In this document: in pieces, positions 1,829-64,000 of the stretch | Layout of the letters: each line of letters begins with the position of its first letter | Numbering within the stretch: the first letter of the stretch is position 1 | Origin: Amphibalanus amphitrite | Lineage: Eukaryota; Arthropoda; Thecostraca; Balanomorpha; Balanidae | Length of the DNA stretch: 64,000 bases | Direction: 5' to 3' | Assembly: GCF_019059575.1 (NCBI RefSeq) | Contig: NW_024881589.1 | Span: forward strand, 1 to 64,000 | The notes under the pieces: generated by a model | Databases searched by the model: none | Seen by the model: only the letters and a program-made list of their open reading frames with translations | Told to the model about the DNA's origin: nothing | Position numbers and translations under genes: made by a program

Positions 1829-43448
<41,620 letters not shown>

Positions 43449-56579: not shown

Positions 56580-58812
56580 GAGGGTAAAATATGCGGCAAG
56601 TTTGGAAGACAAAGTACACAGGGGCGAACCTGAATAAAACAAATACAAAATTGGCAGTTTAAAACCCAGTTTAAAGCGTAGAGCAAGTTATCTTTGATGC
56701 CTGAAAGCAGAATAACAGCCGTGAGAATCTTAGTATAGGAGTCTCATATCTGTACGAGTAGGCATAACGGTTCTTTCGAAACTGGCAGTTGTGACGCTTC
56801 TTGCACGCGAACGGCGCACCAAGTCTTTTGATTGACAAGCGGTCTTTACTGAAAGGTAACCCCATCTGATCAACGTTGCAAAACATTTCAAAAATGGGAC
56901 TGCTTCATTCAAAGTTCGCGTGTGAATCTTTACGGCAATGCCCTTTATTGGTGACCAGAGCGCAAGGCGTAAATCCGTTATGAGGGGTTTATGTGGAAAT
57001 CTGTGCATCGAACACAGAACGCTGTTGGCTGATATGAGGGTATATCCTTGGGTTTAATTTGAGCTCTATTTATGATATGTCTCATGTCAAAACAGAAGCA
57101 TTCTCCCACCTTTTGCCGCTATAAAGGTGCGTTACTTTCGTCCTCGTTTTTGTTTACAGACATGCAAGAACAGTGAAGTGATAAAAGATACAAATGAGTT
57201 CAATGCAATAACAGCCACATGTGCCAATAAATCAAGGAAATAAATATGAATATTGATAGCAGCCATAGTCTAGTTAGATTTCACTTCCAGTCGCTGGCAT
57301 CCTCCACCGTATCCAGCCAAGATGTATTTCTCCCACAACACAGTAAATATCATCGCGGGAGGCATACATTAGAGCCGTCAGGAGTTCGTGCCTCAAACGG
57401 CACAACATGCGCCGTTACCGCCGCATGCGCCACCCACGCCTCGGTGAGTGATAGCCGCCGCCACCAGTGGGAATCCTCGCCGCATTAACTGCGGTAATGG
57501 ACATGCTGTAGTTAGCATACTATCTACATGTTATGCAGAGGTACTGAAAAGAGCACACGTATACTGTAAATGACACAGAGGGCAGCTCATCCAGCATCTT
57601 ATATCCGCTGTTTGGCGGCGGGGCTGGGTGCTGTCCTGGCCGTGGCATCGTCGCGCCCTGGCCGGGCGCAGCTCTGCACGTAAGGAGGTCGAGTTCAGGC
57701 TTAGTTTGGGCGGTCAGCAAGATCGTCATCAGTCGCTGAGATAAATATGCCACGGGTCCTGATGGTGGATTGGTCCTTTTGTCTCCGTCGAGAGCCTCCG
57801 GTACTCAACTGCACCCATCCCCGTTCCCGGGGCACTCCGGCACTCCCTCGGCACTCCTGGGGGCTTCCGAAACTCTCCCCGGCCTGGGCAAGTCTGACCA
57901 GCATTCCGCTTCTGCCAGCGACATGAGGATACTGTTTGTTTACGAATTCAACCCGTCTGTAGGGCTACCATCAAAACCCGTATAGCAGCAACGATAAATG
58001 GCAGGTTACCATATAACTTGGCCCGCCGGTACCCAAAAATTATAGGATAATTGAAAAACGCGCGTCCCACTTGTTTGGTTTTGGGTAATACCACGGATTT
58101 CTCCGCATTTGTCTTCGACGCCAATTCAATGAGTCACGTCCCCAGTCCCAGTGCTGTCTGGAGCACTATGATGCCTTTATCGGTCGTCTCTCATTTCAGC
58201 CGTTTACGTTTCAATGGTAATGTTAACGCCAATTCATAACTGTAGGTGTAATACCTATTCTTCAATTGATATGATGATTTCACCACCACAATCACCCATT
58301 TCAATTTATGCAATTGCAATATCTACGCTCTTTACGAACATCAGTTCACATTTAGCTATAGTGTTACGGCTCTTCCATTTATAAGGGCTACATTAAATCA
58401 GGCATATATGACCAATTTCATGCAACCAAATGAGCAGCCATGGCCCATGCACTGCAAAGAAACAGGTAAGCGGTTCCGCGTCAGTCAACTGGAACGATGC
58501 TGCTATATTCTGTCTTATCACCTCGTAATAATAAACAAAACAAGATGGGCGATAGAGCAGTTGCTATAAATTTATGGCGGCCAGTTTGGGTAGCCAGTAG
58601 CAGCATATGGTCGTTCGCTGAACGGACCCCTATTAACGCTACCGTGTCTAACTAACAGTACAATCTTCCGTGTGATTTAGTACCGTGATCGGATCGCTGA
58701 GCTGCTCCCGTCGACCGTGGCGGGACCACCACCGGAGTCTCCGAGCCCCGGGGTGGGTAAGGCGAGACGACTCCGGCCCTTCTTCTTCTTCTGCGCGGTC
58801 GCGGACCGCGCC

Positions 58813-61800
58813 TTAAGGCGCGGCCGGCGGGGGCGGGTCGGTGGCGACCTGCACCCGCCCCACTCTCTTCAGATAACTGATGATGTGTTGGGCCGGCCCC
58901 GAGAGCACTTCCGCCAGGGTCGGACAGTGCCCCCAGAAGCCGGCCCTCGCCGCCACGTGTGCAGGGCACCCGGCCAGGAGGTGCTCCACGTCCTCCTCCT
59001 CCTCGCCGCAGGCTCGGCAGGTCGGGTCTTCGACCAGGCCGAGGCGATGAGCTGTGGCTCGCACCAGTGGGCAGTAGCCGGTGCGAAGCTGGGACAGGGT
59101 GGCCTGGCCCCACCTGTCCAGCTCATCGTGGCTCGGAGTAGGTTCTCGATGTGGGTGCCGCTGCGCCCTTGCGGAGGCCAGCTCCGATGTCCAGCGACGG
59201 ATGGCTGTCCGCGCGCTGGAGAGGTCGATCGGGGCCTCCTCTTGAGCGCAGTCGGCGGCGGCTTGATTGGCGAGGCGGTCGGCTGCCTCGTTGCCGGCGA
59301 GGTCGGCGTGGCCCGGGACCCAGTGCAGGGTGATATCCTTCCCTGCGGCTGTCAGCGCGTCTATTAGGCCCCAGACGCGCTGACCGATGGCCGACTGTTG
59401 GTCGTCCGGGCCGCGGCTAAGTAGCTGGAGCCCCGACCGGGAGTCTGTGCAGAGCAGCACTCTCTTGATGAGTGCTTTAGAGGGGGCCGGTAGCTCATGG
59501 AGACACGTCAGGGCCTCCGTCATTGCCACCAGCTCCGCCCTCATACTGCTGCACACTCGACCGGCCGGTGCCACGCACTCTATTGTGCGTCCCTCGCGGT
59601 GAAGCTCCAGGATCGCTCCACCGCCGCCTTGGATGGTGCCTTCCTTGGCGGATCCGTCCGACCAGATGGTACAGTCTGGATCGGGGACGAGGGCCAGCGC
59701 CGCTAACGCCGCCTCCTTTCTCTTTTCCGGCAGGTCTGTCCTCCTTGTGGGCTGCGGCAGGTCCAGCACGAAACGGACGGCGTCTCCACAGTGGTGCCAG
59801 GGTGGTGCGCCCTGGTAAAGTGCCAGGGGCTCCACTGGGAGGTCGCTCAAGCCCGCCCTGTCGCAGACCCACCTACCGACCCGACGGAAGCATGGCTTGA
59901 ATGAGAGGGTCGCGTCTTCGTCTGCCGGTGGCGGCGGTGGCAGACCCGCCTCTTCGGCAGACGTCACCGCGCGCCTCCATGCCTCGTGGGCCCGGTAGCG
60001 GAGTCTCGGTGGTGGTGTCTTGTCCAGTAGGTTGCGAGCGGGGTCTCCCGGAGGTAGACGGACTATGCGCGCGTACTCGCCGGCTGCTAGCTCCTTGGCA
60101 CGGAGTGATAGCGGAGGGAGGCCTGCCTCCGCCACCAGGGTCTCCTTATCCGTGAGCTTGATGCAGCCGGTAATCAGGCGCGCACATTTCCGCTGCTCTA
60201 CCTCCAGGCGCTCGCGGACAGCCGGTGCCGCATGGGTGAAGTAGATGGCCGCCCCGTAGTCGAAGAGGGAGCGCACGTAGCTCTTGTAGGCGATGCGGAG
60301 TGTGCTACGGTGGCTTCCGTAGCTCCTTCCGGCAATCGCTGACAGGCAAGCACGGCGCTTTGCCATCTTCTCTCTGAGGGCGGCGATGTGGGCGGCGAAG
60401 GTCAGCTGGCAGTCCAACTTCAGGCCGAGGAAGGTGGGCGTCTCCTCGTAGCCTAGCGGATGGTCGCAGAAGCTGAGCTGGGGCTTGACCTTGCCGCCGC
60501 ACTCCTTGGGGTCCAGCGTGAAGGTGGTCATCACGCACTTGGATGGACTAGGTTGGACCTTCCAAGTCTTCACCCAGCGGCTGACCTCGTCCAGGGCCGG
60601 TTGGAGCCTGTCCGCACACTCCTGCAGAGAGCGGCCCGTCGCGAGAAGGGCCACATCATCCGCGAAGAGGGAGACCGTTGGGCTCGAGTCTCCGGCCCGG
60701 AGTTGGTCGTCGATGTCGTTGCAGTAGATGAGCCAGAGGAGAGGGGCGAGCACGCTGCCCTGCGGCAGGCCCTCCTGGAAGACCCGCCACCGGGAGGCTG
60801 ACGTGCCCCATCTCACTCTAGCGCGCCGGTCGCTGAGTAGGGCCCTGATCCAGCGTGTGGCGCAACCCGGCACACCCAGTCGCCGCATCTTAGCGTACAG
60901 CGCATCCCGCCACACCCGGTCGTACGCTCGCGCGTAGTCCAGGAGGACGAGGATGGCTCGCTGCGGTTTCTTGGACTCGAAACCGTCAAAGATGGTCTGG
61001 GTGACTCGGGCTAGCTGGTCCAGTGTAGAGTGGCCCCTCCGAAAACCGGCCTGGTTTCGGTTCAGCTTTCCGGCGCGCTCGAGCCAGTGTTGGAGGCGAT
61101 GCTGCACGAGTCGTTCAGCGAGCTTTCCGATACAGCTTAGCAAGCTGATCGGTCTGTAGCTGCCGGTCTCGTTGGGCGGTTTCCCTTTCTTGGGAATAGC
61201 GACTATTTCCGCCGCCCTCCATGACGCGGGAACCTCCCCGGTGCGCCAGCTCCAGTTCAGCACCTCCAGCAGATGGCGTTCCGCTGAAGGGCTGAGTTGG
61301 TGGAGCATGTCGTTGGTCACTTGATCGACCCCGGGGCTGCGTCCCTTCCGCAGTTTCCTGATGCCGAGCAGGAGCTCTCTGCGGGAGAAGGGCGAGCAGA
61401 AGGCGTCACGACCGCCGTTGCAGCACGTCTGGCTCGTGGCTCGTCTAGCCTCGATCTTGATGGAATGATCTGAGGTCTTGTCCTTGGGCAGGCGGGACAC
61501 CTGCGCGTAGGCCTGGCAAAAGAGATCTGCCTTCTCTTTGTCAGTGACGGCTGGTCTCGTCGGTTGCGCAGGTTGTCCCTCCGTGCCCGGTCTTGAGATG
61601 GCTACGGCCGGCTTAGCTGGAGGACGCCGGCCGTCCATGGTGCGGATCAGGTGCCACATGTCTCCGTCCGGCTTGAGGTCTGCCGCCTTTTGACGGAAGA
61701 AGGCGGTCTTCTCGTTGTCCACGACTTTGTCGGCCGCTGCCCGCTCCTCCTGGTAGCGCAGGACGTCCGCGCGAGAGCGGCTACGGGATGCAGCTACCCG

Positions 61801-63480
61801 TGCCTCTTCCCGTCGATCGGTTGCGTCCTGGCAGGCTTGGTTCCAGAAGGGCGGGCGTCGCCCTCGGCCGCTTCCGAAGGGGATGCTGGCCCTGGCCGCC
61901 CGCAGGATAGTGGCTGCTAGCCTGCTGGCGGCCTCGTTCAGGGAGGTTGGCTGGGCCGACCAGGCGTTGATCAGCTGATCCAGCTCCTCCCGAAACTTGG
62001 GCCAGTCCGCACTCCGGTGGGAGAACCGGCCTCGGCCTTCCCGTCGTGGACGTTGCACAGACGAAGACAGTGTGACGAGGATCGGCAGATGGTCAGAGCC
62101 GATTCCTCGCTGCGTCACCCAGGTGACGTCTCTTGATCGCAGGAGGTCCCTGGAGGCCAGTGAGACGTCTGGTGCAGAGACTCCGCCGGTGCTGGGATTT
62201 TGCCTGGTACACCCGCCGTCATTGAGGATGGTCATGCCGTTGTCGACGGCCCAGTCCTCAATGGCCTCTCCGAGTGCTGTCTCGGGCTGGTAGGTGTCCC
62301 AGCTGAGGCTGTGTGCGTTGAAGTCACCGCACACCACGGCGGGGTGCTCCAGTCTGATCCCGTCCGGCTGGAATCCCTGCTCCTGGGTGCCCTGGCCTGT
62401 TGTCCAACGCGCTGGAGGTGCGTAGATGTTGTAGACCGACAGGCCAAGGGTCTTTGACGCATGCACCGTCACCGAGACACAGTAGGTGTTGGGGTCTGGT
62501 CGGGTGGGGCGGTACGGAGAGGGGTTGACACTGTACGGGATATCGTCCCTCACCAGTGTCAGAACACCCCCTTGACCCTTGGGGGCGGGTGGCGGTCCGG
62601 CTACAGGACGTTGCCGCGTCGCTGCGCCTGTTGGTGCCGACCCCGACCCCCCTCCGGGTCCCGCCTCCGTTTCGCCGTCTCGCACCCCGGCGTCTCTTCT
62701 CTCCGGGCTTGCTGTGCCAGCGGAGGACGCCACTTGCTCAGGGTGGGCAGCGACTGGAGGGGGTTTCGCACCGGCCCTCACCTCGCACCGCCTCTTGCTG
62801 CGACAGCCGCGGCACCAGTTCTCGCGGTCGTTCTTAAAGCGAGTCCGACACGCGGCTAGTGCGGCGGCGGCAGGCTGTGCGGCGGGCGAAGCGCCGTCGG
62901 GTCGCTCCGGCCTGCTGCTGGCAGGTCTCGGTGCCGGGGGCCCTGGTCGCCCCGGCTCCGGTGCGTCCCGTTGGCGCACAACCAGACCGAAGATGCCGGT
63001 TGGGGCTCCAAGGGTGGCATTCGTTGGGGCGGCTGTCTGTGATCCTCGTGGAGGTGGTGGTCCTCGTGGAGGCGGTGATCCTCGTGGAGGCGGTGGTCCC
63101 CTTGGACCCGTGGTAGTAGTGGCCAGGGAAGCGGGGGGCACTCTCGCCCCGCACCGCTTTTTCTGTAGGCATCCCCGGCACCACAGGTCCTTTTGCTGGG
63201 GACCAAGACGCGCCCGGCAGGTCTCGCCTCTTGGTGTGCCGCCCTCATCGTTGCCTCCCATGGAGCCCGTGTCTTCCTGCCGCCGCCGCCCTCCGATGAC
63301 CGGGCTGGAGGTCGGGGCCCCTGGCGCCCCTCCCGCCGCCGCAGTCACATCGGGGGCGGCGACAGCTGTCGCCGATGGTCCGGTGGTCCATGTCCGGCGA
63401 AGGTCGCACCCCCTGTGGCTCCTGCACCCCCGGCACCACTGCGTGCGGTCCAGCAGTGATGTCCGGCATGCTCGGGGGAG
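58813..63480 (-). CDS. LINE C main ORF: C-clamp-like motifs, endonuclease, reverse transcriptase, RNase H
   Basis: The frame is open upstream of the GTG at 63348 and includes the first Cys motif at 63468-63406. Numbered from 63348 (1,511 residues): Cys motifs at 44-66 and 167-188; PPPPRG repeats around 82-101; endonuclease resumes GQGGVLTLVRDDIPYSV (about 265), VVCGDFNAHSLSWD (about 340), GIGSDHLPILV (about 420); reverse transcriptase RKGRSPGVDQVTNDML, SYRPISLLSCIGKLAERL, LVLLDYARAYDRVW, GLPQGSVLAPLLW, LFADDVALLAT (about 890); RNase H IWSDGSAKEGT (about 1228), SSMRAELVAMTEAL, LLCTDSRSG, HWVPGHADLAGNEAADRL; zinc knuckle CRACGEEEEDVEHLLAGC (about 1445). The long uninterrupted frame argues for a recently active element. 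Clade: I/Jockey-group LINE, not more precise. Confidence 0.88.
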   Translation of the reverse strand, partial: LPRACRTSLLDRTQWCRGCRSHRGCDLRRTWTTGPSATAVAAPDVTAAAGGAPGAPTSSPVIGGRRRQEDTGSMGGNDEGGTPRGETCRARLGPQQKDLWCRGCLQKKRCGARVPPASLATTTTGPRGPPPPRGSPPPRGPPPPRGSQTAAPTNATLGAPTGIFGLVVRQRDAPEPGRPGPPAPRPASSRPERPDGASPAAQPAAAALAACRTRFKNDRENWCRGCRSKRRCEVRAGAKPPPVAAHPEQVASSAGTASPERRDAGVRDGETEAGPGGGSGSAPTGAATRQRPVAGPPPAPKGQGGVLTLVRDDIPYSVNPSPYRPTRPDPNTYCVSVTVHASKTLGLSVYNIYAPPARWTTGQGTQEQGFQPDGIRLEHPAVVCGDFNAHSLSWDTYQPETALGEAIEDWAVDNGMTILNDGGCTRQNPSTGGVSAPDVSLASRDLLRSRDVTWVTQRGIGSDHLPILVTLSSSVQRPRREGRGRFSHRSADWPKFREELDQLINAWSAQPTSLNEAASRLAATILRAARASIPFGSGRGRRPPFWNQACQDATDRREEARVAASRSRSRADVLRYQEERAAADKVVDNEKTAFFRQKAADLKPDGDMWHLIRTMDGRRPPAKPAVAISRPGTEGQPAQPTRPAVTDKEKADLFCQAYAQVSRLPKDKTSDHSIKIEARRATSQTCCNGGRDAFCSPFSRRELLLGIRKLRKGRSPGVDQVTNDMLHQLSPSAERHLLEVLNWSWRTGEVPASWRAAEIVAIPKKGKPPNETGSYRPISLLSCIGKLAERLVQHRLQHWLERAGKLNRNQAGFRRGHSTLDQLARVTQTIFDGFESKKPQRAILVLLDYARAYDRVWRDALYAKMRRLGVPGCATRWIRALLSDRRARVRWGTSASRWRVFQEGLPQGSVLAPLLWLIYCNDIDDQLRAGDSSPTVSLFADDVALLATGRSLQECADRLQPALDEVSRWVKTWKVQPSPSKCVMTTFTLDPKECGGKVKPQLSFCDHPLGYEETPTFLGLKLDCQLTFAAHIAALREKMAKRRACLSAIAGRSYGSHRSTLRIAYKSYVRSLFDYGAAIYFTHAAPAVRERLEVEQRKCARLITGCIKLTDKETLVAEAGLPPLSLRAKELAAGEYARIVRLPPGDPARNLLDKTPPPRLRYRAHEAWRRAVTSAEEAGLPPPPPADEDATLSFKPCFRRVGRWVCDRAGLSDLPVEPLALYQGAPPWHHCGDAVRFVLDLPQPTRRTDLPEKRKEAALAALALVPDPDCTIWSDGSAKEGTIQGGGGAILELHREGRTIECVAPAGRVCSSMRAELVAMTEALTCLHELPAPSKALIKRVLLCTDSRSGLQLLSRGPDDQQSAIGQRVWGLIDALTAAGKDITLHWVPGHADLAGNEAADRLANQAAADCAQEEAPIDLSSARTAIRRWTSELASARAQRHPHREPTPSHDELDRWGQATLSQLRTGYCPLVRATAHRLGLVEDPTCRACGEEEEDVEHLLAGCPAHVAARAGFWGHCPTLAEVLSGPAQHIISYLKRVGRVQVATDPPPPAAP
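62785..62850 (-). other. C-clamp-like motif 3 in LINE C
   Basis: CRTRFKNDRENWCRGCRSKR then RC: C-x11-C-x2-C-x5-C, with a basic run between the last two cysteines. Confidence 0.75.
63151..63219 (-). other. C-clamp-like motif 2 in LINE C
   Basis: CRARLGPQQKDLWCRGCLQK then KRC: C-x12-C-x2-C-x5-C, the same spacing as the TCF/LEF C-clamp, which starts CRARFG and has a WC-x-x-C core followed by basic residues (family knowledge). The best match of the three. Confidence 0.8.
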
Positions 63481-63868
63481 CGCAGCTCTGGGGGGCAGGC
63501 TCGTCTTCTCCTGGGTTTCCCCCGTCTCGCAGGGCCTCTCGGGTCGGCCCGTGTGGACGGGGGGGGCCCGCCCCCAGGCCAGCAGTTCTGGTGCTGGCCT
63601 CTGCTCCCTCGAGCGTCTCCGCCGGTGCCTGTGGTGGTGGTGGGCACGGCGATAATACCGGCGTCGGGGGTGCTTCCGCCTCAGGGGGAGGGTCCTGAGC
63701 CGGCGTCCAGTCTTCGCGCGCGGCGATGTTGTAGCCGGGGAAGGCCGGCGTCTCTTGGCTCGCGCTGAGCTTGGTTTCCTGCAGGAGGACCAGGTGCGGG
63801 CGCTCTGAGGCTAGCCTTGCTCTGAGCTCGGTGAGCCGGGGGTAGATTCCGTTGCAGTTCAACTGCAT
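63245..63868 (-). CDS. LINE C endonuclease N-terminus (other frame)
   Basis: Starts MQLNCNGIYPRLTELRARLA, then HLVLLQETKLSASQ and FPGYNIAAREDWTPAQ, the first third of the AP-endonuclease-like domain, with Asn and the QET glutamate in place. The frame is also open upstream of the Met. It then becomes Pro-rich and out of frame with the main ORF. A shift is needed somewhere between about 63690 and 63480; the G8 run at 63559-63566 is the likeliest slip point. Confidence 0.75.
   Translation of the reverse strand: MQLNCNGIYPRLTELRARLASERPHLVLLQETKLSASQETPAFPGYNIAAREDWTPAQDPPPEAEAPPTPVLSPCPPPPQAPAETLEGAEASTRTAGLGAGPPRPHGPTREALRDGGNPGEDEPAPQSCAPPSMPDITAGPHAVVPGVQEPQGVRPSPDMDHRTIGDSCRRPRCDCGGGRGARGPDLQPGHRRAAAAGRHGLHGRQR
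63406..63468 (-). other. C-clamp-like motif 1 in LINE C
   Basis: CRTSLLDRTQWCRGCRSHRG then C: spacing C-x10-C-x2-C-x5-C with the W-C-x-x-C core. Confidence 0.7.
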
Positions 63869-64000
63869 GATCCTGAGTTCCCCCGGCCCACCTTCCCGCC
63901 CGGTCTCCGGCAGGTCGCGCTGAGCTGTCTGTCGGCGCCGGCTCCCCCGGCGTGCCGCGCGCGCTGAGGCATCGGCTTCCCCCCGGCCAGTGGGGCCAGG

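Follow-up and report, generated by a model that had tools for sequence, protein, structure and literature searches.

Three C-clamp motifs inside the endonuclease domain of a barnacle LINE and their probable bearing on target choice

The DNA analysed here (the window) comprises bases 1 to 64,000 of contig C92 in the Amphibalanus amphitrite genome (807.6 Mb in 2,644 contigs). A sequence-only reading of it pointed out three motifs resembling the C-clamp of TCF transcription factors within a non-LTR retrotransposon, and suggested a possible role in target choice. Such a locus raises the question of whether these motifs are C-clamps at all, where in the protein they stand, and what a retrotransposon might use them for.

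The element and the position of the motif array

The element is an APE-type LINE on the minus strand, extending from approximately 58780 to 64211 of contig C92, with its 5′ end about 211 bases beyond the window end. In order, it encodes a short leader, a 2A-like peptide, an endonuclease, a reverse transcriptase and an RNase H. An APE-type endonuclease and a reverse transcriptase occur in one protein, which is encoded by one open frame in intact copies, and the element carries a 3′ simple-repeat tail and target-site duplications. Its nearest named protein matches are from A. amphitrite itself, at no more than 97% identity over part of the query; some NCBI names of homologous proteins say jockey or BS. 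The main ORF (63810-58813, minus strand, 1,665 codons) covers the second half of the endonuclease, the reverse transcriptase and the RNase H. The N terminus of the protein lies upstream of the start of this ORF, and there the N-terminal half of the endonuclease is encoded in another frame in the window copy. The features, all on the minus strand, are as follows.

63992..64000, minus strand: last three codons (PGP) of the 2A-like motif AGDIESNPGP, the remainder lying just beyond the window end
63710..63877, minus strand: N-terminal half of the APE-type endonuclease (LRIMQLNCNG ... QETK ... GYNIAARED), PF03372 positions 1-55, E 1.1e-4, in a frame differing from that of the main ORF
62572..63709, minus strand: insert of ~379 residues between two endonuclease strands, made up of the three C-clamp motifs and linkers
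63406..63468, minus strand: C-clamp motif 1, C-x10-C-x2-C-x5-C, from the six-frame motif scan
63151..63219, minus strand: C-clamp motif 2, C-x12-C-x2-C-x5-C, the TCF-like one, from the motif scan and the PDB and genome searches
62785..62850, minus strand: C-clamp motif 3, C-x11-C-x2-C-x5-C, from the six-frame motif scan
62080..62571, minus strand: C-terminal half of the endonuclease (GGVLTLVRDD ... CGDFNAH ... SDHLPI), in the main frame, PF03372 positions 60-225, E 4.2e-10, and PF14529, E 1.3e-12
60418..61197, minus strand: reverse transcriptase domain, PF00078, E 2.1e-36, main ORF residues 872-1131
59257..59676, minus strand: RNase H domain, PF00075, E 1.3e-13, main ORF residues 1379-1518
58966..59019, minus strand: C-terminal Cys-rich motif CRACGEEEEDVEHLLAGC, a weak zf-RVT match (PF13966, E 0.0071) below the Pfam cut-off
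58780..58850, minus strand: 3′ end of the element, a G+C-rich hairpin followed by GCAGA and an AAG-repeat tail, RNA fold z -2.97
58767..58779, minus strand: 3′ copy of the target-site duplication GGGCCGGAGTCGT, hand-read, the 5′ copy lying beyond the window

The putative 2A-like peptide was assigned by motif match. The available part of PMC4981915 defines such peptides by D(V/I)ExNPGP near the N terminus, and AGDIESNPGP, AGDIEQNPGP and others are found in the element's copies and families. The whole motif is present in locus L009 (C92:63300-70000).

The array of motifs interrupts the endonuclease domain: PF03372 positions 1-55 precede it and positions 60-225 follow it, beginning 379 codons after the end of the first half. 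The linkers are rich in Pro, Ala, Gly and Thr. In the related protein P0005, the endonuclease spans a clamp within one ORF. This interruption had been missed by the earlier reading. A profile built from the endonucleases of six clampless relatives aligned with human L1, the LTX and LR1 loop variants, and TRAS1 (2v0s, E 1.2e-12; 1vyb, E 3.7e-12; 1wdu, E 7.3e-11). By hand count from this alignment, the array stands in place of the L1 turn QANGKQKKAG, residues 64-73, which includes Lys70. The primer side of the cut comprises the DNA upstream of it, which becomes the 3′ flank of the inserted element. In L1, according to the part of PMC8565326 available, Lys23, His45 and Lys70 form a surface in contact with positions -4 and -5 of the uncut strand, which lie upstream of the scissile bond.

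Identity of the motifs, other copies and selection

When all six frames of the 64-kb window were scanned for C-x(8-15)-W-C-x2-C-x(3-7)-C, exactly three matches emerged, all in one minus-strand frame, bearing out the three in-frame motifs first reported. The W-containing motif never arose in 20,000 shuffles of the 300-residue stretch, and without the W requirement it arose a mean of 0.00125 times per shuffle. The excerpted text of PMC3896468 describes C-clamps from TCFs and from the SLC2A4RG/ZNF395/ZNF704 group, with a first spacing of x12, and holds that zinc, all four cysteines and the basic stretch are needed, the basic residues between the third and fourth cysteines being required for Helper-site binding. 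Copy 2 has this spacing exactly, C-x12-C-x2-C-x5-C, as had been claimed for it, and copies 1 and 3 have x10 and x11, respectively. Basic residues are present between the third and fourth cysteines of all three (RSHRG, LQKKR and RSKRR).

Profile searches, proposed at the outset as a check, also led to C-clamps. In the PDB, searched at E up to 10 with the window stretch, a profile of seven element clamps, and the single clamps of P0064 and P0005, the C-clamp of SLC2A4RG (7dta) was the single match for each of the four queries, at individually weak E-values of 0.1, 1.3, 0.037 and 0.44. A protein search with the clamp stretch alone gave no match at E up to 0.01. Searching the 807.6-Mb genome with the 26-residue human SLC2A4RG C-clamp, again at E up to 10, gave 13 matches: one GLUT4EF-like exon, one TCF-like exon and 11 copies of clamp 2. 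With the barnacle TCF-like exon as query, the 11 matches were the exon itself and 10 copies of clamp 2. The two host exons are presumed to be GLUT4EF-like and TCF-like, being named from their motif rather than from a whole-gene search. In both genome searches, scoring was confined to the top candidates from an initial pass and may have missed weaker matches; clamps 1 and 3 were absent among the matches scored in this way. From the first to the third cysteine, clamp 2 is 59% identical to the barnacle TCF-like exon, compared with 47% to the human SLC2A4RG fragment; the corresponding identities to the TCF-like exon are 41% for clamp 1 and 35% for clamp 3. The description of the motifs as TCF-like thus stands for copy 2 and was overstated for copies 1 and 3. 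By the same comparison, an origin from the host TCF gene is favoured, though not settled, for copy 2 only.

The 684-base clamp stretch matched 12 places on 11 contigs. One open frame runs from the 2A-like motif through the N-terminal half of the endonuclease and all three clamps in four of 11 loci (C34, C1990, C142 and C54), and the open frame around intact copies is 1,808-1,962 codons long. In C49, clamp 3 is in another frame, and in C92, C187 and C295 the N-terminal half of the endonuclease and the clamps lie in differing frames. C1458 has three clamps in one frame, and the N-terminal half of the endonuclease was looked for there and not found; C221 and C1180 are remnants only. The window copy is broken between the N-terminal half of the endonuclease and clamp 1. 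Because four of the 11 copies are open through the same stretch, this frame break is a property of the window copy. A programmed frameshift at the break was considered and rejected, since these four copies and the related proteins P0005, P0007, P0009, P0123 and P0125 are open there.

Selection was estimated from C34 and C142, which represent two subfamilies. On this one pair, with its small numbers, dN/dS was 0.17 for the clamps (10.5 synonymous and 7.5 non-synonymous differences), against 0.63 for the linkers and 0.45 for the N-terminal half of the endonuclease. The linkers contained 21 gap codons and the clamps none, and the cysteines and tryptophans of the clamps were identical between the two copies. 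The expectation that other copies would keep the motifs in frame and under selection has therefore held, and the sequences support purifying selection on the clamps.

These results bear on whether the motifs might instead be Cys-rich zinc knuckles that arose by chance or by convergence. The modest identity of copies 1 and 3 to the barnacle TCF-like clamp and the weak PDB E-values would fit that explanation. It is nonetheless very improbable, because real C-clamps retrieve only the element and host C-clamp exons from the whole genome, the shuffles lack the motif, and the clamps appear to be under purifying selection. We conclude from these comparisons that the motifs are genuine C-clamps and are selected. 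Binding of one zinc ion, the C-clamp fold and binding of GC-rich Helper DNA would be expected of them from the known domain.

Clamps among related elements

Homologous proteins were collected from two protein searches, giving 145 sequences (120 of the 196 listed in one set, plus 25). The clamp profile matched 12 of these 145 at a whole-sequence E < 0.001, five of the 12 being in the training set of the profile alongside the window clamps. Both halves of the endonuclease were recognised in 40 proteins. At the hairpin, seven of them have an insert longer than 100 residues, and all seven carry at least one clamp. In another 29 the QE and GG motifs are separated by a loop of 22-41 residues, and none of these loops contains a clamp; the remaining four were assigned to neither class. 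P0125 has a single ORF with three clamp positions, of which the first lacks the fourth cysteine; P0123 has two clamps with longer last spacings, and P0009 has two. P0005, P0007, P0122, P0128 and P0132 have one clamp each.

In a reverse-transcriptase tree, the seven rows with a clamp in the endonuclease fall within one 16-row clade (support 100/99), of which the other nine rows begin after the hairpin or too late to tell. Outside the clade, the nearest rows (P0025-P0029) are clampless at this point, with a short basic loop. P0064, on a long branch outside the clade, has one clamp N-terminal to the endonuclease, which looks like a separate gain.

Further families were found in the genome itself. 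A second family has ten near-full-length loci and a third has three, with one clamp in each locus, and a fourth (C809, C2384) likewise has one clamp. In the fifth family (C1725, L095) the same hairpin carries a Cys-free insert of about 250 residues, the clamps having been lost or never acquired; in C75 only the part after the hairpin is visible. Clamps can therefore be absent and are not indispensable in the clade: they are dispensable in the fifth family because C1725 keeps a Cys-free insert at the same hairpin.

Insertion sites, target choice and comparison with known systems

Target-site duplications were read by hand at all eight copies with both ends, and in seven of these GA is the base pair before the duplication. 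For the three-clamp family, 36 of the 40 listed 3′ ends were taken, four partial ends being left out, and removal of four with shared flanks left 32 sites; clamp status was read in 11 copies among those behind these ends. Thirteen single-clamp sites remained after two duplicate loci were dropped. For the clampless family, 27 of the 40 listed ends were taken and two duplicates dropped, leaving 25 sites, with the insert read whole in one copy (C1725). An unrelated clampless LINE (window 25701-29446), considered as a control, was followed for 600 nt in 20 copies and the window copy, and its 3′ end did not appear within that distance. Local composition was taken at positions 2-21 after the purine run and background at 60-240 nt.

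At three-clamp sites (n=32), local G+C was 0.683 against a background of 0.583 (p 0.002), CpG per 20 nt was 2.75 against 1.65 (p 0.0005), and GCCG/CGGC, a motif picked after the first sites had been inspected, was 0.94 against 0.38 (p 0.007). These sites also exceeded 167 other purine-run ends in the same flanks in G+C (p 4e-5), CpG (p 1e-6) and GCCG/CGGC (p 6e-5). Single-clamp sites (n=13) had raised G+C (p 0.017), with no significant enrichment of CpG (p 0.12) or GCCG (p 0.26). Clampless sites (n=25) had raised G+C as well (p 0.004), with CpG (p 0.15) and GCCG (p 0.82) not raised. GCCG/CGGC occurred within 25 nt 3′ of the site in 18/32 three-clamp, 6/13 single-clamp and 4/25 clampless sites (three clamps versus none, Fisher p 0.002), a comparison of three family groups with few independent points. 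In excess over local background, the three-clamp family differed from the clampless one in CpG (p 0.006), marginally in GCCG (p 0.06), and not in G+C (p 0.23). An unbiased 3-mer test placed CCG/CGG at the top (28/32 versus 136/222, p 0.002), at a level where no k-mer of length 3-5 passes Bonferroni correction. The shift in target composition is thus greatest in the family with the most clamps. This evidence is correlative, post hoc and drawn from few families, and within those limits it supports the suggestion that the clamps act in target choice.

Taken together, these findings suggest that a surface hairpin of the endonuclease acquired a C-clamp, which in the window lineage multiplied to three. 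The hairpin would be the counterpart of the L1 Lys70 loop, touching the target 4-5 bp upstream of the nick on the primer side. There the clamps would hold double-stranded DNA rich in C+G and CpG, so that the endonuclease would tend to nick at purine runs (about RGA^G) that lead into CCG-rich DNA, the bias growing stronger with additional clamps. The array most likely steers or holds the endonuclease at such sites because the module would lie on the primer side, the composition is shifted on that side, and the TCF C-clamp binds the GC-rich Helper motif RCCGCC (in the part of PMC4267635 available). The clamps thus probably bias target choice and would be the cause of the target shift; we put the probability of this reading, from hairpin insertion to biased nicking, at roughly 0.55. 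Evidence to the contrary comes from the Cys-free insert of the fifth family, the single-clamp sites with no significant CpG or GCCG enrichment, the k-mer test after correction, and the G+C excess at three-clamp sites, which does not differ from that at clampless ones.

The clamps might serve instead to tether the element to C+G-rich open chromatin, or to lend it a general affinity for DNA, with more insertion in CpG-rich neighbourhoods and no choice of nick. The flanks of the three-clamp family are indeed G+C-rich on either side over more than 100 nt, wider flanks having a G+C of 0.58 compared with 0.51 in the clampless family, and a G+C excess at the site itself no larger than in the clampless family is as tethering would predict. 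Against this, CpG and CCG peak within 20 nt 3′ of the site, above the purine-run controls from the same flanks, and we regard tethering as unlikely.

The G+C-rich partner might instead be the 3′ end of the element's own RNA or cDNA rather than the target, with a part in choosing templates or assembling particles. Sequences of the CCGCC and GCCGGC type occur at the 3′ end of the window family, which is more stably folded than its shuffles (the z of -2.97 given above), and the single-clamp family likewise has GCCGCC and GGCGGCGGG at its 3′ end. The single-clamp 3′ end, however, folds no better than shuffles (z -0.60), the clampless family likewise has a G+C-rich stretch at its 3′ end (GCGCCTGCGGGCGCG), and the known C-clamps described in the portion of PMC3896468 at hand bind double-stranded DNA, all of which leave this explanation with a small share of the probability. 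Biased nicking by a clamp-bearing endonuclease is therefore preferred. A broader form of it, in which a transcription-factor C-clamp was taken into the hairpin and multiplied, clamp number tunes the targets, and insertion preference evolves by adding or dropping modules inside the nicking domain, is offered more tentatively, with the odds somewhat against it.

LINE families as closely related as these, bearing three, one or no clamps in one and the same hairpin, would provide a natural series for following a change in target preference, and the hairpin might be a site at which the endonuclease tolerates added DNA-binding modules. The sequence-only reading knew of no LINE with repeated C-clamps, and a search of open-access full text, outside which most subscription journals lie, likewise found no paper linking C-clamps with retrotransposons or other transposable elements. 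Both C-clamps and LINEs that have gained additional DNA-binding parts are known separately; their combination, repeated and within an endonuclease domain, did not turn up in that literature.

The element clamps share with the C-clamps of TCF/Pangolin, a transcription factor of the Wnt pathway, and SLC2A4RG (GLUT4EF/HDBP1) the W-C-x-x-C core, four cysteines and basic residues before the last cysteine, and differ from them in the shorter first loops of copies 1 and 3. The TCF C-clamp lies beside an HMG box, whereas the element clamps lie inside a retrotransposon endonuclease, with up to three per protein; no intron interrupts their coding sequence, whereas the TCF-like exon of the barnacle stops immediately beyond the third cysteine. 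The endonucleases of human LINE-1 and TRAS1 belong to the same APE-type fold family by profile, but where L1 has a strand-to-strand loop of about 10 residues, the barnacle element has an insert of about 380 that carries three clamps; unlike these two, the barnacle element also has an RNase H and an ORF led by a 2A-like peptide. R2 is a target-specific LINE with zinc-finger and Myb DNA-binding parts. Together with the engineered fusions of the TRAS1 endonuclease to TRF1 (described in the available part of PMC2868851), it likewise joins a DNA-binding module to a nicking enzyme to direct cutting. In the barnacle element, by contrast, the C-clamp array stands within the endonuclease rather than at an end, and the target is biased rather than fixed.

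Clamps and adjoining modules in related LINEs

Among the relatives, a clade member from a clampless family (L095, G000:C1725:46200-49300) carries a long Pro-rich insert in the endonuclease hairpin with zero cysteines; the clamps may have been lost or may never have been gained. P0064, a distant LINE protein of 2423 aa, has one C-clamp, placed N-terminal to the endonuclease, and this clamp looks like an independent gain. PHD-like Cys clusters, a likely 2A-like motif and a long C-terminal extension, presumably peptidase-like, are also present in P0064. In the single-clamp families (L021, L032, L093, P0005 and P0122) a 2A-like motif is followed immediately by a PHD-like Cys/His stretch, which in P0005 matched Pfam PHD below the cut-off (E 0.0075). 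The three-clamp family is without the stretch that follows the 2A-like motif in these single-clamp families.

Other repeats in the window

Another LINE, which is clampless, and a separate ORF were found together with DNA transposon remnants and simple repeats. The 3′ part of this clampless LINE has at least 40 matching places at ≥98%.

25701-29446, plus strand: clampless LINE with endonuclease, reverse transcriptase and RNase H in two frames
22588-25335, plus strand: 916-codon ORF coding for endonuclease and reverse transcriptase (PF00078, E 1.9e-27)
20277-22298 and 30087-30671, minus strand: BED zinc finger and remnants of hAT-type transposase (Dimer_Tnp_hAT, DUF659 below cut-off)
31921-32329: minisatellite, 21-base unit, about 20 copies
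1-282, 18721-18839, 34011-34128 and 41547-41650: long GA/CT dinucleotide runs

3′ end and insertion target

The 3′ end of the main element contains a structure that could possibly be recognized for reverse transcription.

58780-58850, minus strand: strong G+C-rich hairpin upstream of the AAG tail (z -2.97)

A 34-base target sequence (TCAGTGGTGTACTGG...) is common to the ends of a single-clamp copy (L023, 3′ flank) and a clampless-family copy (L121, G000:C332:54676-54976). Since both copies end at this identical sequence, the two families used the same target, which is probably a repeated sequence.
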